49,633 nt of DNA from Nesterenkonia sp. (lineage in GTDB: Bacteria; Actinomycetota; Actinomycetes; Actinomycetales; Micrococcaceae), in assembly GCF_029265375.1 (NCBI RefSeq), contig NZ_JAJUJJ010000021.1, positions 1 to 49,633 on the forward strand. The letters run 5' to 3'. The notes under the pieces were generated by a model. The model made no database searches. It was given only the letters and a program-made list of their open reading frames with translations, and was not told where the DNA came from. The translations under genes and the position numbers were made by a program. Below are positions 6,707-17,131 of this stretch, piece by piece. The number at the start of each line of letters is the position of its first letter. Positions within the stretch are counted from its first letter, which is position 1.

Positions 6707-7246
6707 ATGAGTGAAGAGACCACCGCTGAGACCACTGTGCCCACCCCCGCCGCGCCTCCCCTGGGTGAGCCGAGCCCGTTTCCCGACGACGCCGAGCGCC
6801 GGGCCCGCCTGATCGCCGCCGGGGTGCCGGAGGACGTGTGGGAGCATATGGGCCCGCACGGGGTGGCCCCGATGGGGCTGCGGCTGGGCATGAAGTACCA
6901 CGAGATGACCGTGGACAAGGTGGTGGCCACGATGCCGGTGGGTGGCAATGAGCAGAATGTGGGGCTCTTCCACGGCGGTGGTCACCTGGTGCTGGCCGAG
7001 ACCCTGGGGTCGCTGGCCACAATCCTGCATGTGCGGAGGAACCTGGGATGGGACCGCAATGTGGTGGGCATCGAGCTGGGGGCAACTCATCACCGCTCAG
7101 CCACCAGCGGTCTGGTGTGGGCCACCTGCACCCCGATCAACCTGGGCCGCACTCTGGGGGTCCATGAGATTGTGATGCGCGATGACGAGGGCCGCCGGCT
7201 CTCCACCGCGCGGATGACGAACATGATCCTCCCCCCGCGCGACTAG
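6707..7246 (+). CDS. PaaI-type hotdog-fold thioesterase
   Basis: A 179-residue protein with a hotdog thioesterase domain at about residues 55-175. The segment NVGLFHGGGHLVLAETLGSL matches the family helix that begins G-x-x-H-G-G and carries the catalytic region, and GLVWATCTPINLGRTLGVHE is the typical second strand. Such enzymes hydrolyse acyl-CoA thioesters in the cytoplasm. The first about 45 residues are proline- and glutamate-rich and probably disordered. The ATG at 6707 has GGAG close upstream. The gene is divergent from polA and convergent with the GT4 gene; in many actinobacteria a thioesterase of this kind is a neighbour of polA. The acyl substrate is unknown. Confidence 0.85.
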   Translation: MSEETTAETTVPTPAAPPLGEPSPFPDDAERRARLIAAGVPEDVWEHMGPHGVAPMGLRLGMKYHEMTVDKVVATMPVGGNEQNVGLFHGGGHLVLAETLGSLATILHVRRNLGWDRNVVGIELGATHHRSATSGLVWATCTPINLGRTLGVHEIVMRDDEGRRLSTARMTNMILPPRD

Positions 7247-7261
7247 GTGGGCCCTTCCCCA

Positions 7262-7395
7262 CCCTGCCGGCCCGGCTCCCTCCCAGCCTGGCCGGTCCCT
7301 CCCTGCGTGGTCGGCCCCTCCCTGCGTTACGTGTCGGATGGGCCCAAATTCCCGGCTGAAATGGGCTCATTTGGGCCCTTCCAACACGTAAGTTC
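7262..7395. repeat. Dispersed hairpin repeat, copy 1, with C-rich tandem units
   Basis: TTACGTGT (7327-7334) pairs with ACACGTAA (7384-7391), and GGGCCCAAAT (7340-7349) pairs with ATTTGGGCCC (7369-7378). With the GGA/TCC pairing between them this makes a 23-position stem with two mismatches. C-rich degenerate units of about 19-20 bases (GGTCCCTCCCTGCG, GGCCCCTCCCTGCG) lie to its left at 7262-7326. A second copy in the opposite orientation lies at 15129-15300. This copy fills the gap between two convergent genes, so it could also work as a bidirectional terminator. Confidence 0.85.
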
Positions 7396-7419
7396 CTGGA
7401 GAAGACGGACCTGCGCGGG

Positions 7420-8550
7420 TCAGCGGCTCAGGAAGTGGTGCAGGGCAGCTTCGATCGCCTCGGCGTGCCGCTCGGCGGTGTAGCGCCGGCGCACTATCTG
7501 CTGGCCCCGCTCCCCCAGCCGGGCCAGCAGCTCGCGGTCCTGCAGCAGGGTGTGGAGCACCTCACGCAGCGACTCGGCCGATCCGCCATGGAAGTAGCGT
7601 CCGCTGACGCCCTCGACGACGGCTTCGATCTCCGGGCTGGAGTCCCGGTGTCCGGACTCGGCCACCACCGGCACCGCGAAGCCCAGCGCCTGGATCACGT
7701 TGAGTCCGGCACCGCCCACGGACAGGGCGACGTCGGCCTGGGAGTAGAGTTCGGCGAGCCGCCTGAACTCGTAGACAGCACCTAGGAACTCCGCCTCCAC
7801 ACCGGCTTCGGCGAAGAGCCGCTGCAGCCGGGGCCGCTCGACGCCGTCGCCGACGATCAGCACGCGCGGGGCCGGCTGGTCTTCCGGCCAGTCGCGCAGC
7901 GCTTCGGCCAGGATGTCCAGCCGGTGCCGGGTGGTCAGCCTGGAGCAGTAGATCAGCGTGGGGCGGCCGGCCGCGGCGCTTGCCACCTGGGCGCGAGCAC
8001 GGGCGGCATCGGGAAGGTCGGCTTCTGAGTAGAGACTGTTGTAGACCACCTGGATCTTGCTCTCGGGCACGCCGTAGCTGATGCCGAGTTCCTTGGCGCG
8101 GTCTCCGTAGACCATCAGGCCGTCGACCAGGCGGTAGAAGCACAGCCGCAGCTGCCGCTTGGCCCCGCCCTCGGGTCGCTTCCAGCCGTGGCCCCACAGC
8201 AGCACGCGCCGGCGTCGCAGGCGGCCGGCGACGGCGGCGGCCCAGGTGGAGACGGTGTAGATCCTGCCTTCAAGCACATAGGCGTCGAAGCCTCCTCGCC
8301 AGACGGCGGAGACCTGGCCCTTCTCCCACCACAGCAGTCCGGCGGTGAGGGTCTGCAGTGCGGTGACCTGCTGCAGGGTCCGTGCGGAGGCGGACTGGAT
8401 GCGGTCGGCCTGCTGCGCCTCGCTGTTGCTGAACCGCCCCACCATCTCCAGGGCCAGGCTGCGGGACTGGCGCAGTCTGCGCACCAGCGGCTCCCGGTAA
8501 TGGGAGACGGTGGGTTGGATCTGGAATCGGATGCGGGGCCGGCCGGTCAT
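7420..8550 (-). CDS. GT4-family glycosyltransferase
   Basis: A 376-residue GT-B fold glycosyltransferase, presumably acting on the cytoplasmic face in envelope polysaccharide or glycolipid assembly. The N-terminal acceptor half runs to about residue 180. The donor half contains IYCSRLTTRHRLDILAEALR, VLIVGDGVERPRLQRLFAEA and the nucleotide-sugar loop region around GGAGLNVIQALGFAVPVVAE, where GGAGLNVIQAL replaces the usual E-x7-E stretch seen in many GT4 enzymes. The ATG at 8550 follows AGGGTGG. It is transcribed toward the hairpin repeat at 7.3 kb. Donor sugar and acceptor cannot be told. Confidence 0.85.
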   Translation of the reverse strand: MTGRPRIRFQIQPTVSHYREPLVRRLRQSRSLALEMVGRFSNSEAQQADRIQSASARTLQQVTALQTLTAGLLWWEKGQVSAVWRGGFDAYVLEGRIYTVSTWAAAVAGRLRRRRVLLWGHGWKRPEGGAKRQLRLCFYRLVDGLMVYGDRAKELGISYGVPESKIQVVYNSLYSEADLPDAARARAQVASAAAGRPTLIYCSRLTTRHRLDILAEALRDWPEDQPAPRVLIVGDGVERPRLQRLFAEAGVEAEFLGAVYEFRRLAELYSQADVALSVGGAGLNVIQALGFAVPVVAESGHRDSSPEIEAVVEGVSGRYFHGGSAESLREVLHTLLQDRELLARLGERGQQIVRRRYTAERHAEAIEAALHHFLSR

Positions 8551-8647
8551 AGCACCACCCTAGAGCGGCAGCAATGGTGTCCCTGGTCAGGAGCGCATCC
8601 AGGTCTGCGGAGGGCGGCAGCACCGGAACAAACCGGCGCCGCGGCGG

Positions 8648-8722
8648 TGGAGGGGGTGACGGGAATCGAACCCGCATAACCAGCTTGGAAGGCTGGGGCT
8701 TTAGCCATTAAGCTACACCCCC
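8648..8722 (-). tRNA. tRNA-Gly (anticodon TCC)
   Basis: Reading the minus strand, the acceptor stem GGGGGTG/CACCCCC (8716-8722 with 8652-8658), anticodon stem CCAGC/GCTGG around loop CTTCCAA, and T arm GCGGG/CCCGT with loop TTCGATT fold as a complete cloverleaf. The anticodon is TCC, reading GGA and GGG. The 3' CCA is encoded (8648-8650). It stands alone between two glycosyltransferase genes. Confidence 0.95.
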
Positions 8723-8812
8723 GCTGCGCGCGAAGCACCTAGGAACTCTACCAACACCAGACCGTTTGCTCCAACTCGGCGCACCGCTGCCCACGGCAGG
8801 TACGCTCGTGGG

Positions 8813-9958
8813 GTGGAGTCTGAGATCGCATCTGCGGCTGAGGAGGCCCGACGCACCGCCGCCGAGCACCGTCTGCGGCTGAGCATCATTGTTCCGGTGT
8901 TCAACAACGGAGAGCACCTGCGCACGCGCTCGTTCCCCTCGCTGGCCCGTGCCGAGCACTTCCATCAGATGCACGTGCTGCTCATCGACGACGGCTCCCG
9001 CTACGCGGCCACCCGTGAGGCTGTGGCGGAGCTGGCCGCAGGACACCCCAATGTGACCGCATACTTCCGTCCCGAGGGAGGCAGCGGATCGGCGTCGGTG
9101 GCGCGGAACACCGGGCTGGCGCTGAGCTTCACCGACTATGTGGGGTTCCTGGATCCCGACGACGAGCTGCTGCCTGGACACTGGAGGCTGACCGAGGCGC
9201 TGGATCAGCACCAGGACGCCCAACTGGCCATCGGCAATCAGCAGCGGGTCTTCACTGAGGAGACCGTGGACGTGGACAATCTGCGCCACTACACCCACCG
9301 GTGGGTGCGCCCGGGTGTGGCCGAGGCCGGGCCGGAGTCGCTGAGCGCAGCGAAGTTCCGATCCACCAACCTCAGCGCCTGGGTCGGGCGCACCTCCTGG
9401 CTGCGCTCCACCGGCATCCAGCAGGTCCCCGGTGCCGCGGGCCAGGATTCGCTGTTCTTCCTGCAGGTCTTCGCCGAAGCCTCCCGGTTCGCCGCGGTGG
9501 AGGAGCTGACCTACCGGTATCACGCCGAGGTGCCGGGCTCGATGGTCAACGCCATCGGCGTCGACTACTTCCGCAAGGCCCTGATCCGGGAGCGGGCTCA
9601 GCGAAGCTGGTTGGAGCAGTCCGGTCTGCTGGAGGACTTCTGCCGCCTGCGGTTCGAGCACTTCTTCGTCACCTGGTACTTGGACAAGTTTGAGCAGACC
9701 CCGTGGCCGGAGCGGGAGGAGGCGGCCGGGCTGCTGCGGGAGATCGCCGCGCTCTACGTCGGAGATCCGCAGCAGCACCGGTGGCGCTTTCCGCAGGCGA
9801 TGCAGTTCTTCGGCCGCTGGTCGATCCCCTCGGTGGAGGGTCTGCGTCCCTGGGCCGGACAGGTGGCCCGCGCAGCGGGGACCGCAGCCGAACGGGGGGC
9901 GCAGGCCGCCCAGCGGATCAGGCGGGCCGCCCGTACTCGTCGCGGCCGGCGCCGGTGA
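8813..9958 (+). CDS. GT2-family glycosyltransferase
   Basis: A 381-residue GT-A fold enzyme. The N-terminal catalytic domain begins at about residue 22 with LSIIVPVFNNGEHL, followed by HVLLIDDGS and the metal-binding DxD-type motif in VGFLDPDDELLPG near residue 120. The C-terminal portion has no membrane segment and ends in a very basic tail rich in Arg. GTG at 8813 is the chosen start; no strong ribosome site is visible. It is convergent with the next GT2 gene, and the two coding regions overlap by 41 bases at their 3' ends. Probable role in cell-envelope polysaccharide synthesis, by family and by neighbours; the product is unknown. Confidence 0.87.
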   Translation: MESEIASAAEEARRTAAEHRLRLSIIVPVFNNGEHLRTRSFPSLARAEHFHQMHVLLIDDGSRYAATREAVAELAAGHPNVTAYFRPEGGSGSASVARNTGLALSFTDYVGFLDPDDELLPGHWRLTEALDQHQDAQLAIGNQQRVFTEETVDVDNLRHYTHRWVRPGVAEAGPESLSAAKFRSTNLSAWVGRTSWLRSTGIQQVPGAAGQDSLFFLQVFAEASRFAAVEELTYRYHAEVPGSMVNAIGVDYFRKALIRERAQRSWLEQSGLLEDFCRLRFEHFFVTWYLDKFEQTPWPEREEAAGLLREIAALYVGDPQQHRWRFPQAMQFFGRWSIPSVEGLRPWAGQVARAAGTAAERGAQAAQRIRRAARTRRGRRR

Positions 9959-10838
9959 GGCTGCCCAGCATCCCCAGGCCCTCGCACAGGTAATAGTCGT
10001 CGGTATAGGTGATCGGCCGCCCGCGCAGCCGCTTGCCAGCCCGGCGCAGTGATCCGTAGCCGCAGCGGGCCAGCCCTTCCGCCGCGGTCCGGACCGCAGC
10101 CGGCACAGCCGCGGTGCGCCGACGCAGCTTCATGGCGCGGACGCGCCCTCCCCGCACGGCACGCCGGCGCAGCCACTCTTTGCTGGCGCGCTCGGCAGGC
10201 ACCTGCTCGGTGACCACCGCCTCGGCGCACCAGAAGAACCGCGCGCCGTCGCGCAGCATCCGCTCAAACAGGTCGGAGTCAGATCCGCCGGCGAAGTTGA
10301 AGGTCTCATCGAATCGCCAGCCGCGGCGGGTGAACCATTCGGCCCGGACCAGCGTGTTGTTGGTGGCCAACCGCCGCTGATGCGGCCCGGTCGGAAAGTC
10401 GGTGCGCCGCACATAGCCGTACTCAGCGACCCATGCGGGCTCCCCATGAAGAAACTGGGGCAGCACCGGGCCGGAGACCGCGTCGGCACCCGACGATTCG
10501 GCGGCGGCCAGCAGAGCGGTGAACCACCCTGGTGTGACCTGCTCGTCGTCGTCGACAAAGATCACCGCCTCAGCCGACTCCGGCACCGCCTCCAGCGAGG
10601 CATTGCGGGCCGAAGCGATACCCGGCCGCGGCTCGTGGAGGAACCGTGCCCGCGGATACACCCGCCTGACCACCTCAGCGGCGCTGGGCCGCTCGGCGTT
10701 GTCCACCACAATGACCTGGGGCTGCTCCAGGTCTGTGCCTTCGGGCATATCCACCCGCCGCAGCGAGTCCAGTAGCGCGCCCAGCTGCTCCGGTCGGCGG
10801 TAGGTGCAGATCAGCACCCACACGTTCTCAGGGCGCAT
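9918..10838 (-). CDS. GT2-family glycosyltransferase
   Basis: A 306-residue GT-A glycosyltransferase with VWVLICTYRRPEQLGALLDS at the N-terminus, VIVVDNAE, and the DxD-type motif in AVIFVDDDEQVTPGWF at about residues 90-105. The later segment FNFAGGSDSDLFERML has the acidic pair often acting as catalytic base region in this family. It follows the LCP gene with an 11-base overlap and a strong GGAGG site before the ATG at 10838, so rnc, LCP and this gene form one unit. No membrane segment is visible. It is distinct in sequence from the neighbouring plus-strand GT2. Confidence 0.87.
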   Translation of the reverse strand: MRPENVWVLICTYRRPEQLGALLDSLRRVDMPEGTDLEQPQVIVVDNAERPSAAEVVRRVYPRARFLHEPRPGIASARNASLEAVPESAEAVIFVDDDEQVTPGWFTALLAAAESSGADAVSGPVLPQFLHGEPAWVAEYGYVRRTDFPTGPHQRRLATNNTLVRAEWFTRRGWRFDETFNFAGGSDSDLFERMLRDGARFFWCAEAVVTEQVPAERASKEWLRRRAVRGGRVRAMKLRRRTAAVPAAVRTAAEGLARCGYGSLRRAGKRLRGRPITYTDDYYLCEGLGMLGSLTGAGRDEYGRPA

Positions 10839-11988
10839 CGTTGCCTCCGCCGGTGAAGGATCCAGGTCCGGCGCCGATCTCCCGGTCGGCCTGCAGCTGC
10901 TCAGCGGCCTCGCTCTCCTCCAGATAGGCCATGAACCCGTCCAAGTTCTGGTGCTGCAGGGAGCGCTGCAGCAGCTGCATCTTCTCTTCGTCCGGCAGGA
11001 TCACCTGCGCCCCGCCGGAAGTCTCGTGGTTCTGGCCCACCGGCATGGTGAACATGTGGATGTCGCTGCTGCGCAGATTGCGCATCTCCATGGCGTAGCC
11101 CACCACCGTGTCGGCATCCAAGCTGCCGTCCATACTCATGAACGGGAGGATGGATTCCAGCACGTCCAGGATCCGCTCCGGGTTGGTCAGCGTATCTCCG
11201 GAGAGGAAGCGCTCCACAATGGCGCGCAGCACCAGCTGCTGGTTCTCCACCCGCACATGGTCGCCCATGGCGAAGGACTTGCGTTCGCGCACAAATCGCA
11301 GCGCATCCGAGCCCTGCAGCCGGATGGTGCCCTCCGGGTAGAAGGCGGGGTTGCGCTGCCCGGCGGAGAAGGACCGGGGATTGTCCACATAGACTCCGCC
11401 CAGCGCAGTGGTCAGATCGGAGAAGCCCTCAAAATCGATGGTCACCACATGGTCGATGTGCGTGTAGAGCATCTCCTCCACAGTGTCCACCGCGAGCTCC
11501 AGGCCTCCGGCGGAGAAGGCGGAGTTGATCCGGCCCTCGCCGTGGCCGGGCACCTCCACCCACAGGTCGCGCATGATGGACATGACATAGACCCCGGAAC
11601 GGTCCTCGGGAATGTGGACCAGCATAATCACATCGGAGCGCTCTCCACCCTCGCCGGTGATGGCGCGGTACTCCTGCTCCGTGTCGCCCCGGCTGTCGGA
11701 GCCGAGCAGCAGAATATTGGTGGTCCCCTCCGGGGTGCGGTAGGCGGTGTCGTCGTCGAGGTCCTCCAGGCCTTCGATCACGTTCCGGTTGTCCTCGAAT
11801 GTGCCCTGCAGCCGGCTGAGGTAACCCAGGGAGATCACCACGGCGACGGCGGCCGCCACCGCCACGGCGGCCACAACTATGGCCGCGATCCGGCGACGAC
11901 GACGGCGCGGCGACGGCGCAGCCGGAGCAGCTTCCGGCACCACTCCCCCGCGCGCCCGCCGGGGGCGGTGCGGATCCATCTGACCCAC
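10828..11988 (-). CDS. LytR-CpsA-Psr (LCP) family protein
   Basis: A 386-residue membrane-anchored LCP protein. A basic cytoplasmic segment (PSPRRRRRRI) precedes one membrane helix at about residues 34-56. The extracytoplasmic LCP domain starts with NILLLGSDSRGD and includes SDVIMLVHIPEDRSGVYVMS, IMRDLWVEVPGHG and LRFVRERKSFAMGDHVR, which carry the conserved Arg and Asp residues that bind the polyprenyl pyrophosphate head group. LCP enzymes transfer lipid-linked glycopolymers onto peptidoglycan. The GTG at 11988 follows AAAGGAG that overlaps the rnc stop, giving an 11-base gap. It overlaps the following GT2 gene, which suggests they act on the same polymer. Confidence 0.93.
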   Translation of the reverse strand: MGQMDPHRPRRARGGVVPEAAPAAPSPRRRRRRIAAIVVAAVAVAAAVAVVISLGYLSRLQGTFEDNRNVIEGLEDLDDDTAYRTPEGTTNILLLGSDSRGDTEQEYRAITGEGGERSDVIMLVHIPEDRSGVYVMSIMRDLWVEVPGHGEGRINSAFSAGGLELAVDTVEEMLYTHIDHVVTIDFEGFSDLTTALGGVYVDNPRSFSAGQRNPAFYPEGTIRLQGSDALRFVRERKSFAMGDHVRVENQQLVLRAIVERFLSGDTLTNPERILDVLESILPFMSMDGSLDADTVVGYAMEMRNLRSSDIHMFTMPVGQNHETSGGAQVILPDEEKMQLLQRSLQHQNLDGFMAYLEESEAAEQLQADREIGAGPGSFTGGGNDAP

Positions 11989-11999
11989 CGGCGCTCCTT

Positions 12000-12737
12000 T
12001 CAGCTTGTTCCGAGCTCGTAGCGGTCGAGCACCAGAGTGAGGATATCGGCCTCACCCTGCACGCCGATCAGCTCCTCCACGGCGGCGCGCGCCGCCTCCC
12101 GCTCGGCTTCCTTCTTGGAGCTGCCGGACCCGGCGCCGTAGACCGCGCCGCCGATGGTCAGCGTCGCGGCGAAGGACTTGTTGTGGTCGGGTCCGGAGTC
12201 GGAGATCACGTAGCTGATCTCGCCCAGCCCGCGAGCGGCGGCGATCTCCTGCATTGTGGTCTTCCAGTCCTTGCCGGCGGTCATGGCCTCTTTGTCCGAC
12301 AGCAGCGGGGTGACCAGGCGCAGCACCAGCTTCCGGGCGGTCTCCGTATTGGTGGAGAGGTAGGCGGCTCCGAAGAGCGCCTCCATGGTGTCCGCCAGGA
12401 TGGAATCCTTCTCCGCGCCGCGGGTGCGCAGCTCGCCTGCGCCCAACCGGATATGCGGCCCCAGGTTCAGGCTGCGCGCAATCCGCGCCAGCGCGCGGGT
12501 GGAGACCAGTGCGGCGCGCAGTTTGGCAAGGTCACCTTCGGGCAGATCCGGGTAGGTGCGGTAGAGGTAGTCGGTCACCGCGAAGCCCAGCACCGAATCC
12601 CCAAGGAACTCCAGGCGCTCGTTGGTCTCGGTGCCGTCATTCTCATAGGCGTAGGAGCGGTGGGTCAGGGCAAGACGAAGAGTCTCGGGGGCGATGTGCA
12701 CCCCGAGACTCTTCAGCAGGTCTTCGGTCTGAGCCAA
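12000..12737 (-). CDS. rnc: Ribonuclease III
   Basis: A 245-residue double-strand-specific endoribonuclease for rRNA and mRNA processing. The signature NERLEFLGDSVLG is at about 39-51, and Asp116 and Glu119 in DTMEALFGAAYL are the second pair of Mg2+ ligands. A double-stranded RNA-binding domain occupies about 165-235 and ends with KKEAEREAARAAVEEL. The start is TTG at 12737: a TAA lies just upstream in frame, and the resulting length agrees with homologues, although the AAGGA motif directly abuts it. It follows rpmF by 22 bases in the common yceD-rpmF-rnc order. The gene normally next, mutM, is not here. Confidence 0.95.
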   Translation of the reverse strand: MAQTEDLLKSLGVHIAPETLRLALTHRSYAYENDGTETNERLEFLGDSVLGFAVTDYLYRTYPDLPEGDLAKLRAALVSTRALARIARSLNLGPHIRLGAGELRTRGAEKDSILADTMEALFGAAYLSTNTETARKLVLRLVTPLLSDKEAMTAGKDWKTTMQEIAAARGLGEISYVISDSGPDHNKSFAATLTIGGAVYGAGSGSSKKEAEREAARAAVEELIGVQGEADILTLVLDRYELGTS

Positions 12738-12759
12738 TCCTTACCGGACCGTCAGATCA

Positions 12760-12963
12760 TCAGGCGTCGGCGACTTTGCGGCCCTTGTACTCGTAGAACA
12801 GCGGCGTGTCAGCGGAGTCGGTCACCAGCTTGGCCTGGTGCGGACGGCTGTAGACGACACGGCCGTTCTCCACCGTCTTCACCAGGGTCGGCACGGAGGC
12901 CTTCCACTGCGAGCGGCGGTGACGGGTGTTGGCGCGGGACTTCTTCCGCTTCGGAACAGCCAC
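12760..12963 (-). CDS. rpmF: 50S ribosomal protein L32
   Basis: A 67-residue basic ribosomal protein with the family N-terminus [20 protein letters not shown]. It has no cysteines, so it is the zinc-free form; the C-terminus [11 protein letters not shown] replaces the usual zinc-ligand region. GTG at 12963 is preceded by GAGAG. It sits between yceD and rnc, as in most bacteria. Confidence 0.96.
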
Positions 12964-13023
12964 GGTGTCTCTCTTCTCTCTCGTTGTCGGACAGTGTCTT
13001 CGGTCAGTCTAGGGTCAAGTCTC

Positions 13024-13605
13024 TCACGAGGGGTCCGGCTCGCCGCCGGGCTCCTCGTTCTCGTTCAGCTCTGCTGCCAGGCCCGCCAGGGCGGCCCAGC
13101 GGGGGTCCACCTGCTCGTGGGCGTGCTCCGGATCGTCCTCCAGGCGGAATCCGCACTGAGAGCACAGACCGGGACAGTCCTCACGGCAGACCGGCTGGAA
13201 CGGAAGGGCCGAGACCATCAGGTCTCGAAGCACCGGCTCGACGTCGACCATGAGGTTCTCGTCCACGGCGAGCGAGTCGCCGTCGTCGTTCTCCCCACCG
13301 GTCTCGTCGACCCAGGTGAACAGCTGCATCACGTCTACAGTCAGCGGGTAGCTGATCGCATCCAAGCAGCGGGCGCACTCACCGGTGACCTCCGCGGAGG
13401 CCGAGCCGGTCAGCAGCACTCCCTCATGCACAGACTCCAGGCGCACCTGAACATTCAGATCGCTGGCTTCCGGTATTCCGACCAGTACTGTGGCGAAGTC
13501 CGCCGGGGTCGGGACTGTGCGGGAGAGTGTCTCCTGAGCGCCGGGTTTTCCCTTGAGCTCCTTGACGTCCACCTGCAGCAGAGTCTTCTGCTGTGGATGT
13601 ATCAC
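13024..13605 (-). CDS. yceD: DUF177 (YceD) family protein
   Basis: A 193-residue member of the DUF177/YceD family. E. coli YceD is linked to 23S rRNA accumulation and its plant homologue to plastid rRNA processing. The cysteine pattern is intact: CARCLDAISYPL near residue 100, then CREDCPGLCSQCG near residue 150, suggesting a bound metal. The N- and C-terminal ends are acidic. The start is GTG at 13605 with a weak ribosome site. Position directly upstream of rpmF is the family's usual place and implies co-expression with the L32 gene. Confidence 0.9.
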   Translation of the reverse strand: MIHPQQKTLLQVDVKELKGKPGAQETLSRTVPTPADFATVLVGIPEASDLNVQVRLESVHEGVLLTGSASAEVTGECARCLDAISYPLTVDVMQLFTWVDETGGENDDGDSLAVDENLMVDVEPVLRDLMVSALPFQPVCREDCPGLCSQCGFRLEDDPEHAHEQVDPRWAALAGLAAELNENEEPGGEPDPS

Positions 13606-13663
13606 AGCAGACTATCCTACCACGGTGCAGCCGGATCAGCGCATCGCCGTCGGGCCGGCTGCC

Positions 13664-14572
13664 TCACAGGGTGGTGACGAACTCCTTGAGCCAGCTGCGC
13701 AGATCGGGGCCCAGGTCCTCGCGGTCCACCGCCAGGGTCACCACGGCCTTGATGTAGCTGAGCTTATCGCCGGTGTCGTAGCGCCGTCCGCGGAAGATGA
13801 CTGCGTGCACGCCGCCGCCGTCCTCCGCCGGCCGGGTGGCCATAGCCTGCAGGGCATCGGTGAGCTGGATCTCCCCGCCCTTGCCCGGTGGGGTGCGCTC
13901 CAGCTCGTCGAAGATCGCCGGGTGCAGCACGTAGCGGCCGATGATCGCCAGGTTCGACGGCGCCTCCTCCACCGGTGGTTTCTCCACCAGCCGGTGCACC
14001 GGCACCACATCCGCGCCGGGCTCCTTGTCCTTCCCTCCGGCGTCGACCACGCCGTATGCCGAAACCTGATCCTCCGGCACTTCCATCACCGCGATCACAG
14101 AGCCGCCCAGCTCCTCCTGGGTGGCCAGCATCGTGGTCAGCAGCTCATCGCGAGCGTCAATGAGATCGTCGCCCAGCAGCACGGCGAAGGGCTCGTTGCC
14201 GACGTGCTGGCGCCCGCAGAGCACCGCATGTCCCAGGCCCAGCGCCAGGCCCTGGCGCACATAGTGCAGATCACCCAGATTGGTGGCACGCTGCACCGCG
14301 GCCAGCTTCTTGGTGTCCCCCTTGTCCTGGAGGGTCGCCTCCAGCACCGGGGCCCGGTCAAAGTGGTCCTCCATGGACCGCTTGTTCTGACCGGTGATCA
14401 TCAGGATGTCTTCCAGGCCGGCCGCGGAGGCCTCGGCGACCACATACTGGATGGCAGGTTCGTCCACCACCGGCAGCATTTCTTTGGGCATGGCCTTGGT
14501 GGCCGGCAGGAACCGCGTGCCCAGCCCGGCAGCAGGGATCACAGCCTTACGAATGGAACTCTTCGCGCTCAT
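13664..14572 (-). CDS. galU: UTP-glucose-1-phosphate uridylyltransferase
   Basis: A 302-residue nucleotidyltransferase making UDP-glucose from UTP and glucose 1-phosphate, for envelope glycans and glycolipids. The nucleotide-binding N-terminus AVIPAAGLGTRFLPATKAMP with the downstream Lys in KEMLPVVDEPAIQYVVAEA is diagnostic, as are AVLLGDDLIDA and VVPVHRLVEKPPVEEAPSNL. It lies 9 bases after coaD and before yceD. Its presence among glycosyltransferases and LCP genes fits a supply role for wall polysaccharide. Other sugar nucleotidyltransferases are less likely because the GalU-specific segments are all present. Confidence 0.93.
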   Translation of the reverse strand: MSAKSSIRKAVIPAAGLGTRFLPATKAMPKEMLPVVDEPAIQYVVAEASAAGLEDILMITGQNKRSMEDHFDRAPVLEATLQDKGDTKKLAAVQRATNLGDLHYVRQGLALGLGHAVLCGRQHVGNEPFAVLLGDDLIDARDELLTTMLATQEELGGSVIAVMEVPEDQVSAYGVVDAGGKDKEPGADVVPVHRLVEKPPVEEAPSNLAIIGRYVLHPAIFDELERTPPGKGGEIQLTDALQAMATRPAEDGGGVHAVIFRGRRYDTGDKLSYIKAVVTLAVDREDLGPDLRSWLKEFVTTL

Positions 14573-14581
14573 AGCGTCACC

Positions 14582-15076
14582 CTATCGTGTGTGGTCCCGG
14601 GCACCGGCATCAGCAAGTCTGCTGTGCACCGCCCTGGGCACGAACTCGGAGACGTCCCCACCCAGGGCGTGAACCTCCTTGACCAGTGTGGAGGACAGGT
14701 GGGAGTAGCGTCCGTCGGAGGTCAGGAACACCGTCTCCACTCCCGCCAGGTGCCGGTTCATAGTGGCCATGGAGGTCTCATAGGGCAGATCGTGGGGCCC
14801 ACGGACGCCCTTGACCACGGCAGAGGCCCCGACCTCCTTGCAGAAGTCTGTCAGCAGCCGCCCGCTGTCCAGGGGCTTCACCGTGACTCCGCGCAGATAG
14901 GAGAAGGTCTCCTGGGCCATATCCATGCGCTGCTCCAGGGTGAACAGCGGGGACTTGTGCATATTGGCGGAGACGGCGACGACGATTTCGTCGAACAGGT
15001 TCGCCGCGCGGGCGATGATCTCCACGTGGCCGTTGTGCAGCGGGTCAAAGGATCCCGGACAGACTGCTGACTGCAT
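14582..15076 (-). CDS. coaD: Phosphopantetheine adenylyltransferase
   Basis: A 164-residue enzyme for the fourth step of coenzyme A synthesis, forming dephospho-CoA from 4'-phosphopantetheine and ATP. The nucleotidyltransferase motif SFDPLHNGHVEII is at residues 9-21, and VVKGVRGPHDLPYETSMATMN and FLTSDGRYSHLSSTLVKEV match the family. The start is ATG at 15076. In most actinobacteria coaD follows rsmD directly; here a GT4 gene and a repeat element lie between them. Confidence 0.95.
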   Translation of the reverse strand: MQSAVCPGSFDPLHNGHVEIIARAANLFDEIVVAVSANMHKSPLFTLEQRMDMAQETFSYLRGVTVKPLDSGRLLTDFCKEVGASAVVKGVRGPHDLPYETSMATMNRHLAGVETVFLTSDGRYSHLSSTLVKEVHALGGDVSEFVPRAVHSRLADAGARDHTR

Positions 15077-15128
15077 ACCTCACACCCTACCTGGCCTGCG
15101 GGACGACCGGGTGCGGCGCCGCCCGCCG

Positions 15129-15300
15129 GAACTTACGTGTCAGATGGGCCCAAACTCAGGCCATTTCGGGGTGAGTTCGGCACTTTCTGACACGTAACTC
15201 GGCTGGGCGGCGGGGACTGGCCCACAGTGCCGGGCTGGGGCGACGGGGACCGGCACTCAACGCAGGGCTGGGGCGACGGGTCCGGCGCTCAGCGCCGTGC
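15129..15300. repeat. Dispersed hairpin repeat, copy 2 (inverted), with GC-rich tandem units
   Basis: TTACGTGTCAGA (15133-15144) pairs perfectly with TCTGACACGTAA (15186-15197); inside, AACTCA pairs with TGAGTT. On the minus strand it aligns with copy 1: both have GAAATGG, then TTTGGGCCC, then ACACGTAAGTTCC at the end away from the tandem units. Degenerate units (about 35 bases, GGGCTGGGGCGACGGG) run from 15200 to about 15300 and enter the 3' end of the GT4 gene. The gap 15077-15288 holds nothing else that I can recognise. Confidence 0.85.
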
Positions 15301-16515
15301 TGGGCTGCGTCGGCGGGCGGCGCTCTTCCGGCGCTGGTCGACGGATTCGAGGACTTCCAGGAACCGCTGGAACAGCAGCTCGCGGTCGAACTCGGTCCGG
15401 GCCAGCTCCAAGGCGGCCTCCGAGGCCTGCTGGACCGAGCCGTCTGAGGCCTCCAAGATGCCTATCAGCTGCTCAGCAGCCTCAGCGGGCAGCCGGGAGA
15501 GCCGCCATCCGGCACCGTGGTCGCACAGCACCTCCGGCAGCCAGCCGCCGTGGTTGAACAGCACCGGACGGCCGGCCGCCAGGGCGTCGAAGACCTTGTT
15601 GAGCGAGTTGATCTCCAGCGCCGGGCTGTCCACCAGCGTGGAGACGGCGAAATCTGCCGCCGGCAGCATGCGCTCGATCTCGGTGCGCGGAATCTTTCCG
15701 GGCAGCACCTGCAGGGGGTCCAGCCCGTAGCTCTGGGCGATCTCCCGGCAGTTCTCGGTATCGGCGCCCTCCCCGTAGGCCACCACCCGGACCGGCTTGC
15801 TGCGCCGATGCAGCTCACCGGCCAGGCGAATCAGCCATGGCACGTCATAGGTGACTCCGAAGCTGCCGGCGTAGAACAGCACCGTCTCGTCCGGGCCCCA
15901 CCCGAGCTGCTGCCGGATCTCCTGGCGCCGCTGCCGGCCGGGTGCAAAATTCTCCACATCCGAGGCATTGGGCACCACAGTGGTCTTGGCCGCCGGCCAT
16001 ACCCGCTTGATGCCCGCCTCCATGCCTGGGGACAGAGCGATGACATGCTCAGCGCTGCGGTAGGCCAGCTTCTCCAGGAACTCGGCAGCGCGGATAGCCT
16101 TCCGGTTCTTCAGAAAGCCCAGGGCCACCGGAGCTTCGGGCCACAGATCGCGGACCTCGAAGACGAAGGGCACGCGTCGGGCCCGGGAGGCCACGATGCC
16201 GGGCACCGCGGTGGTCAGCGGGGTGGAGGAGGCGAAGACGACGTCGGCCTTCTCCGCGGCGGCGAAATAGCAGGCGCGCGCCATGAAGGAGATGAAGGAG
16301 CGCAGCCGCTGCTGGAAGACCATGGCGTTCTCATACGGCACCGCCAGCCGCTGCACGCGCACTCCTTCGAGCACCTCGTCCTTCTTCTCCCGGCCGCCGC
16401 AGATGACGGTGACCTCGTGGCCGGCACGTGCCAGCCTCCGGGCGAACTGCCACGGCCGCTGCCAGCCGGGCTCCCAGGGGAAGTTGAAGTGCTGATGGAT
16501 GTAGACGATGCGCAC
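15289..16515 (-). CDS. GT4-family glycosyltransferase, WbuB-like
   Basis: A 408-residue GT-B glycosyltransferase. It begins MRIVYIHQHFNFPWEPG and has PFVFEVRDLWPEAPVALGF, TTVVPNASDVENFAPG, FYAGSFGVTYDVPWLIRLAG and EINSLNKVFDALAAGRPVLF. The last motif with LNKVFD is characteristic of the WbuB/WcaI-like branch that adds amino sugars such as N-acetylfucosamine, but the sugar here is not proven. GTG at 16515 is chosen because the homologous N-terminus starts there; an in-frame ATG 180 bases upstream would add 60 residues of unlike composition that overlap rsmD. It separates rsmD from coaD. Confidence 0.88.
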   Translation of the reverse strand: MRIVYIHQHFNFPWEPGWQRPWQFARRLARAGHEVTVICGGREKKDEVLEGVRVQRLAVPYENAMVFQQRLRSFISFMARACYFAAAEKADVVFASSTPLTTAVPGIVASRARRVPFVFEVRDLWPEAPVALGFLKNRKAIRAAEFLEKLAYRSAEHVIALSPGMEAGIKRVWPAAKTTVVPNASDVENFAPGRQRRQEIRQQLGWGPDETVLFYAGSFGVTYDVPWLIRLAGELHRRSKPVRVVAYGEGADTENCREIAQSYGLDPLQVLPGKIPRTEIERMLPAADFAVSTLVDSPALEINSLNKVFDALAAGRPVLFNHGGWLPEVLCDHGAGWRLSRLPAEAAEQLIGILEASDGSVQQASEAALELARTEFDRELLFQRFLEVLESVDQRRKSAARRRSPARR

Positions 16516-16582
16516 GAGCGTCAGTCTACGACGGCACAGGTGCCGAAAGTCTGTGGCGTTCCGGAGCGCCAGCTGATCGGTG

Positions 16583-17131
16583 TCACACCGGTTCGGCCAA
16601 CCAGATGCGCGTAGAGCCGTAGGTCTTGCTGTGGAAGAGGCGCAGGCCCATCGGCCATACCGGCTCCGGGGCTCTGGCGTCACGTTCGACGACAACGGTG
16701 GCGGCTTCGTGCAGCTGAGGAGCTGCCGCGGCGAGCACGGAGCTCAGCTCGGCCTCGCTGAACCGGTAGGGAGGGTCCAGAAAGAGCAGCTCGATCGGCT
16801 CGCCGCTGCGGGCGGAGAGGTGTTTGAGCGCATCGGCCTTGTGAACGGTGACCGCTTCGCCGAAGGCGGCGGCGTTCTTCCGCAGGGTGCGCACCGCAGG
16901 CTCGGCCCGGTCGACTGCTTCCAGGCTGCGCGCCCCGCGGCTGAGCGCCTCCAGCCCCAGCGCTCCGGAGCCGGCGAAGAGATCCACCACGACGGCGTCG
17001 TCGATGGCGTTGTATCCCTCCAGCCGGGAAAACAGGGACTCTTTGACCCGGTCGCTGGTGGGCCTGGTTCCATCGGTGGGCACAGCGGCCAGCCGACGTC
17101 CCTTATGGGTGCCTGCGATGATGCGTGCCAT
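16583..17131 (-). CDS. rsmD: 16S rRNA (guanine966-N2)-methyltransferase
   Basis: A 182-residue SAM-dependent methyltransferase modifying G966 of 16S rRNA. It starts MARIIAGTHKGRRL, the family N-terminus, then TRPTSDRVKESLFSRLE, the SAM-binding motif VVVDLFAGSGALGLEALSRG, and the catalytic motif LLFLDPPYRF. The ATG at 17131 follows AGAGG by 5 bases; the open frame extends further upstream, but into unlike sequence. It follows recG by 47 bases, the standard recG-rsmD-coaD order. Confidence 0.94.
   Translation of the reverse strand: MARIIAGTHKGRRLAAVPTDGTRPTSDRVKESLFSRLEGYNAIDDAVVVDLFAGSGALGLEALSRGARSLEAVDRAEPAVRTLRKNAAAFGEAVTVHKADALKHLSARSGEPIELLFLDPPYRFSEAELSSVLAAAAPQLHEAATVVVERDARAPEPVWPMGLRLFHSKTYGSTRIWLAEPV

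Follow-up and report, generated by a model that had tools for sequence, protein, structure and literature searches.

Repeats bracketing DUF559-type genes in relatives of a Nesterenkonia species suggest a palindrome-and-nuclease mobile element

The stretch of DNA analyzed here, referred to as the window, comprises 49,633 nucleotides from Nesterenkonia sp. (NCBI RefSeq assembly GCF_029265375.1, contig NZ_JAJUJJ010000021.1, positions 1 to 49,633 of the forward strand), and it carries two copies of a 65-bp palindromic element that belongs to a dispersed family in its own genome. Repeats bracketing DUF559-type genes in several relatives suggest a new mobile element built from palindromes and a nuclease. 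By a narrow judgment, we favor a reading in which the palindromes belong to a mobile element linked to a DUF559 (Vsr-like) nuclease, as its recognition sites and as non-autonomous copies of it, because of the geometry of the family, its intergenic placement, the element-free orthologous junctions, and the independence of the half-sites, and because one copy stands beside a DUF559-type gene and matching repeats flank such genes elsewhere. To the broader proposal we give slightly less than an even chance: that this is a new class of mobile elements in Actinomycetota, in which an AbiEi-like-DUF559 gene is bracketed by its own palindromic sites, solo sites are dispersed, and site and protein change together between species, as a counterpart of the repetitive extragenic palindrome (REP)/RAYT system with an unrelated nuclease.

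Each element consists of two inverted 24-nt half-sites (consensus approximately TTACGTGYCRGAWGGGCCCAAACT) around a variable 17-nt spacer, with conserved ends TTACG/CGTAA. The 24-17-24 spacing is kept in all 21 copies, and all 15 distinct copies returned by a search that permitted 62 to 70 bp measure 65 bp. A model made solely from the sequences of 17 copies matched the own genome 42 times, at 21 places counted on both strands (C2:7327 and C2:15133, which are the window copies, C3:71747, C5:49795, C6:102091, C8:1093, C10:9333, C11:58490, C11:82293, C12:32358, C13:46239, C13:91923, C17:81304, C19:40500, C22:16373, C33:50837, C33:77115, C44:16696, C44:17556, C50:1952, and C58:27198). The family thus has at least 21 copies, a lower bound, as 150 of 464 first-look candidates were scored. 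A degenerate pattern located 20 places in this genome and none in the reversed control. When half-sites were sought independently of element length, with one mismatch allowed, there were 26 hits, compared to 11 in the reversed control. Of these 26, 21 fall within 65-bp elements and five stand alone.

The original prediction, made from the letters of the window, had described a pair of palindromes with tandem tails. Both palindromes are present, each 65 bp long, as are the GC-rich degenerate units beside them (Table 1). Within each copy, the arms are complementary at 91% over 23 nt (copy 1) and at 81% over 26 nt (copy 2). The opposite orientation ascribed to the pair does not hold, since the two-fold symmetry of the element (61.4 and 61.1 bits for the two strands of copy 2) leaves the orientation of copies without meaning; nor did any result support inversion of the segment between them. 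Genes for GT4-type glycosyltransferases do adjoin both window copies, as predicted. However, the genes that adjoin the other copies encode ordinary proteins with no function in common, so we take the GT4 adjacency as chance, and a regulon of neighboring genes was rejected on the same observation. No copy overlaps a called gene (0/21; calls were made with a codon-usage gene caller written for this analysis). Two outcomes that the prediction had named as counting against itself did not occur: the family extends beyond the two window copies, and the same terminator does not recur at every orthologous place.

Of 29 congeners, 28 have no match to the model, and the remaining one (G029) has a single diverged copy. 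With up to two mismatches, the degenerate pattern had no match in 395 other genomes of the order, and in exact form it had none in genome_contigs or viral_contigs, where records near the own genome have possibly been left out. A phage- or plasmid-borne source was set aside, as the patterns and query used found no match in genome_contigs, viral_contigs, or plasmids, with the same proviso for near-own records. A looser pattern reached 6 of the 30 genomes of the genus (control, 0), with 13 matches in the own genome, 3 in G029, and 1 each in G005, G006, G014, and G028, the last of which falls within a called gene. Spread across the order was rejected: among 396 genomes, the looser pattern occurs once each in 9 besides the own one, four of these sharing one sequence, versus 10 in the reversed control, so we regard the order-wide matches as background.

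Orthologous junctions in congeners generally lack the element. The junction that holds copy 2 is element-free in all 10 congeners examined, where it spans 2 to 52 nt, compared to 212 nt in the own genome. At the junction of copy 1, none of nine congeners has an element of this type; four of these junctions are closed, with genes that overlap or stand at most 3 nt apart, whereas five measure 95 to 114 nt. A related but different palindrome stands at this site in G006 and an unrelated one in G029. Three further junctions were located in G006, all without the element.

The way in which copies vary bears on what is conserved in them. Arms were compared over 20 of the 21 copies, one member of a near-identical pair on contig C44 being dropped. 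Among these, identity is 78% for left arms and 76% for right arms, and spacers are 45% alike in the best orientation versus 34% when shuffled, which indicates that the spacers keep some common ancestry. Arm identity is 0.779 within one copy versus 0.775 between copies, and 40% of permutations were as high. In 17 copies, there is no stem covariation beyond column make-up (178 of 500 shuffles were as high for paired cells and 96 of 500 for the covariation score), which argues against a selected hairpin of RNA or single-stranded DNA. Half-sites that vary independently, with no covariation, fit better with a double-stranded site read as two half-sites. There are two half-site subtypes, sometimes combined in a single copy, as in window copy 2, where the left half-site is of the GGGCCC type and the right one of the AAGTGC type.

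The link to a nuclease begins with the copy at C8:1093-1157, which lies upstream of a minus-strand DUF559-type gene whose start is 116 nt away. This gene is broken and sits at a contig end. Prompted by this neighbor of the element, we tested DUF559-type genes elsewhere for flanking repeats. In 800 kb of G006, there are 28 long palindromes, 23 of them intergenic, versus 0 to 2 in three shuffles of the intergenic sequence; some are terminator-like, and others form families of few copies. Two pairs of these palindromes each bracket a DUF559-type gene, one pair lying between rnj and ftsK. For the test, the two flanks of each gene (450 nt on each side; 500 nt for L243 and L244) were compared to each other by blastn. 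The test was limited to genes with both flanks visible, labeled DUF559-type by mutual similarity, and where gene limits were unannotated they are approximate.

Matching repeats on both sides, at an E value below 1e-4, were found for 11 of 15 DUF559-type genes. The values are 1.9e-7, 1.1e-9, 0.005, and 3e-15 for four G006 genes and 0.005 for a further gene of that genome; 0.001 for the G005 gene; 4e-9, 6e-8, and 1e-9 for L242 of Arthrobacter sp. ERGS1:01, L243, and L244, all on Arthrobacter plasmids; 5e-18, 1e-9, 2e-16, and 4e-24 for L245, L247, L248, and L249 on Tsukamurella plasmids; 9e-11 for L250 on a phage-labeled fecal contig; and 0.005 for L246 of Nonomuraea. Random G006 genes reached E < 1e-4 in 1 of 400 cases and E < 0.01 in 33 of 400, and the four weak DUF559-type genes were therefore counted as misses. 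None of 200 genes in an earlier random sample reached E < 1e-4, and none of five neighbor genes reached E < 0.01. In G006, each gene is bracketed by a different family, and three of these five families recur elsewhere in the genome at E <= 0.01. The family at rnj-ftsK has no further copy in the G006 sequence examined, and the likeness of the repeats at the further G006 gene to two other palindromes was seen by eye only.

The annotation of DUF559 genes goes no further than a domain of unknown function, and to our knowledge they have no agreed role. A profile of six of the proteins matches one solved structure, the endonuclease-like 3hrl (E value, 0.0022), and does so at its nuclease end only. 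L249 is annotated as a member of the AbiEi family. The gene at C8 was searched in pieces and not mended; we infer that its product is the partner of the own palindrome family. Among the matches listed, no description in the literature links DUF559 to palindromes, homing, or mobile elements, and none ties palindromic repeats in this bacterial group to DUF559.

Taken together, these features can be accommodated in one scheme. Each 65-bp palindrome would be a double-stranded recognition site made of two inverted 24-nt half-sites exactly 17 nt apart, probably read by a protein that starts with an AbiEi-like DNA-binding part and ends in a DUF559 (Vsr-like) nuclease. The gene of this protein, itself bracketed by such sites, would represent the autonomous form, whereas we would count solo palindromes, both window copies included, as non-autonomous copies or target sites. 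Spread may occur by cutting followed by repair or transposition, and the sequence of the site would turn over between species.

Several observations weigh against this scheme. A DUF559-type gene adjoins only one of the 21 own copies, and that gene is interrupted by one in-frame stop and cut short by the end of the contig, which leaves its second flank out of view. Four of the 15 genes tested gave weak values (E, 0.001 to 0.005). Two of the 11 positives were first noticed through their palindromes, and without them the count is 9 of 13. Palindromes stand on both sides in only 6 of the 11 (three G006 genes, L242, L245, and L248); L243 and L250 have a palindrome on one side and a single matching arm on the other, in L244 and L247, inverted repeats take the place of palindromes, and in L249 a direct repeat of 75 nt does. 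Of eight proteins scanned with Pfam DUF559, just three score above the cut-off, four fall below it, and L249 has no match at E <= 1. The likeness of the protein starts to AbiEi_4 (PF13338) is sub-threshold and limited to three of six proteins (E, 0.013 to 0.057). The comparisons were between congeners, so that movement is presumed, and there is no target duplication. Finally, the scheme does not account for the C-rich flanks of the elements.

These flanks are found throughout the family. On either side of an element, the sequence leading up to it is rich in C over a reach of about 75 nt (38 of 42 flanks, with a mean skew of 0.286), where random intergenic places give a mean of -0.003 (standard deviation, 0.033). 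The skew is 0.32 in the 24 flanks that face a gene end and 0.24 in the 18 that face a gene start. Seventeen G006 palindromes of other families behave in the same way (26 of 30 usable flanks C-rich; mean, 0.282; null, 0.000 with a standard deviation of 0.040), whereas ten terminator-like hairpins of G006 have no such skew (17 flanks; mean, 0.005). The tandem units at the window copies look like a local form of these flanks.

Among the alternatives, a miniature inverted-repeat transposable element (MITE)- or REP-like element moved by an unrelated transposase, with DUF559-type genes that have their own sort of repeats or merely insert within or next to palindromes, seems to us unlikely. Such an element would form a dispersed, intergenic, species-limited family with inverted ends, as seen here, and the scarcity of DUF559-type genes beside the own copies would be expected of it. 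It agrees poorly with two results: RAYT (Y1 tyrosine transposase, PF01797) has no match in the own genome, although 5 of 14 control genomes were positive (other transposase families were not searched), and a target duplication of 4 nt or more is found at 0 of 21 copies, with one of 3 nt at a single copy (shuffled mean, 0.33). Nor would it lead one to expect matching flanks at 11 of 15 DUF559-type genes, with different families within one genome. The dispersed, REP-like family of the original prediction is itself supported, by its intergenic copies and by the element-free junctions of congeners; the RAYT transposase that it had brought into play was not found, and the evidence points to a DUF559-type nuclease instead. 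An attC-like integron site was set aside, with no search made for it, by comparing the end motifs to attC boxes.

The two remaining alternatives ascribe to the palindromes a function in transcription, and the gene context of the 21 copies (6 between convergent genes, 3 between divergent genes, and 12 between genes of the same direction) bears on both. It is improbable that they are operator sites of a host-gene regulator, possibly AbiEi-like, that do not move. Two half-sites at fixed spacing that vary independently would suit such sites, as would the resemblance to reported AbiEi operators (PMC7319586). Some copies are also well placed for this role: elements L062, L072, and L073 (on contigs C3, C17, and C19) end 29 to 30 nt ahead of a called start codon. 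As a separate matter, the outer end CACGTTGA could act as a -35 box in some copies, so that copies may alter promoters. However, no promoter is expected between the six convergent pairs, the neighboring genes are functionally unrelated, and orthologous junctions in congeners lack the site. More improbable still is a role as terminators or insulators that act in both directions, which could depend on Rho and use a bound protein as a roadblock; the C-rich approach from both sides and the six convergent pairs speak for it. The conserved terminator offered in the original prediction is not supported: all 21 copies lack a four-T run within 15 nt of either end, neither window copy has a terminator-like site, the stem does not covary, and three copies lie between divergent genes; moreover, the flanks are C-rich even where they face a gene start, and the terminator-like hairpins of G006 are unskewed. 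We retain the nuclease-linked mobile element as the preferred explanation.

Other observations concern the surroundings of these repeats. Locus L077 (C44:16696-17620), between rnj and ftsK in the own genome, holds two near-identical elements inside 122-nt direct repeats (96% alike) that enclose about 740 bp with a 110-amino-acid, membrane-protein-like frame. The pair may form a cassette. The same junction has a DUF559-type gene in G006 and G005 and only a short spacer in nine other congeners read. In G010, G007, G026, and G029 (L229, L230, L234, and L235), it holds a 55- to 70-bp palindrome, each different and peculiar to its genome, as if intergenic palindromes of many families settled at the same places. 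G029 also has two near-identical CCCGGG-type palindromes of 78 nt, 95% alike and 8.8 kb apart, with otherwise unrelated flanks (C42:52358 and 61214; L144 and L145), and, at C22:151-330, a DUF559-type fragment at a contig end, a position like that of the own C8 gene. The repeats that flank DUF559-type genes may break assemblies. The motif TTATCCACA, which we take to be DnaA-box-like, or its complement occurs upstream of 10 of 16 DUF559-type genes (at most one mismatch; eight exact; genes of G006 and G005, L242 to L244, L249, and the own L065), compared to 27 of the 587 upstream regions taken from G006 as controls, with 250 to 370 nt searched for the former and 250 nt for the latter. It may tie expression of these genes to replication. 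In a search for viral relatives of an Arthrobacter DUF559-type protein, nine stretches fit the peptide pattern and none was confirmed. The features of the window are listed in Table 1.

Table 1. Palindromic elements of the window, their flanks, and neighboring features
Feature	Position	Strand	Remarks
65-bp palindromic element, copy 1	7327..7391	.	Half-sites 7327-7350 and 7368-7391; spacer 7351-7367
65-bp palindromic element, copy 2	15133..15197	.	Half-sites 15133-15156 and 15174-15197; spacer 15157-15173
C-rich flank of copy 1	7247..7326	+	Two degenerate 19-nt units at 7277-7314
G-rich flank of copy 2 (other strand C-rich)	15201..15304	+	Three degenerate units 32-33 nt apart; extends into the 3' end of the adjoining gene
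Thioesterase superfamily (4HBT) gene	6707..7246	+	Neighbor, outside the element
GT4-type glycosyltransferase gene	7420..8550	-	Neighbor, outside the element
tRNA gene	8651..8722	-	Between both elements (Rfam tRNA, 71.6 bits)
Cytidylyltransferase-like (PF01467) gene	14582..15076	-	Neighbor, outside the element
GT4-type glycosyltransferase gene	15289..16695	-	Neighbor, outside the element; start uncertain, gene caller gives 16515

If DUF559 proteins are the partners of palindromic sites, then a single explanation would cover a class of orphan nucleases and a class of intergenic repeats that has had none. A protein with a long target site of its own could be had from each species, and the system would offer a test case for a nuclease and its recognition site changing together.

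The proposed element overlaps only partially with known systems. Vsr-like homing endonucleases have a related nuclease fold and could spread by a comparable homing-style route, but here there is no intron or intein, and the target would be an intergenic palindrome. Of the features of MITEs, the own family has terminal inverted repeats (the 24-nt half-sites) and no target-site duplication; it does not have the GC-rich hairpin with a T-run, conserved downstream of genes, of an intrinsic terminator. Palindromic GC clusters of yeast mitochondria are likewise short, spread in the genome, fast to diversify, and prone to merge, although they belong to a eukaryotic organelle and differ in sequence, and are not known to include a DUF559-type gene (PMC4478555). 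The antitoxin AbiEi is reported to bind a pair of 23-bp inverted repeats separated by 3 bp, and Rv2827c to bind pairs separated by 13 bp (PMC7319586). The own 24-17-24 arrangement resembles these operators in its layout, with two inverted half-sites close to 23 bp in length that keep a constant distance. It differs in that each AbiEi operator is a site at the promoter of a single operon, whereas the sites described here are dispersed and bracket a nuclease-type gene whose product would bind them. A further parallel is with REP/RAYT systems (REPtrons), which also combine small, dispersed, lineage-specific intergenic palindromes with a DNA-cutting partner encoded by one gene that the palindromes flank. 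REPs are 20 to 40 bp long, carry a GTAG or CGTC end tag, and usually number more than 100 copies (PMC3733652, PMC2817692). In contrast, the own element is 65 bp long, has about 21 copies and neither tag, and occurs in a genome with no Y1 tyrosine transposase; the candidate partner is a DUF559-type nuclease, and the variation among copies suggests a double-stranded site rather than a hairpin. Given these differences in transposase, tag, length, and copy number, we conclude that the family is not a member of the REPs, though it would work in a similar way.

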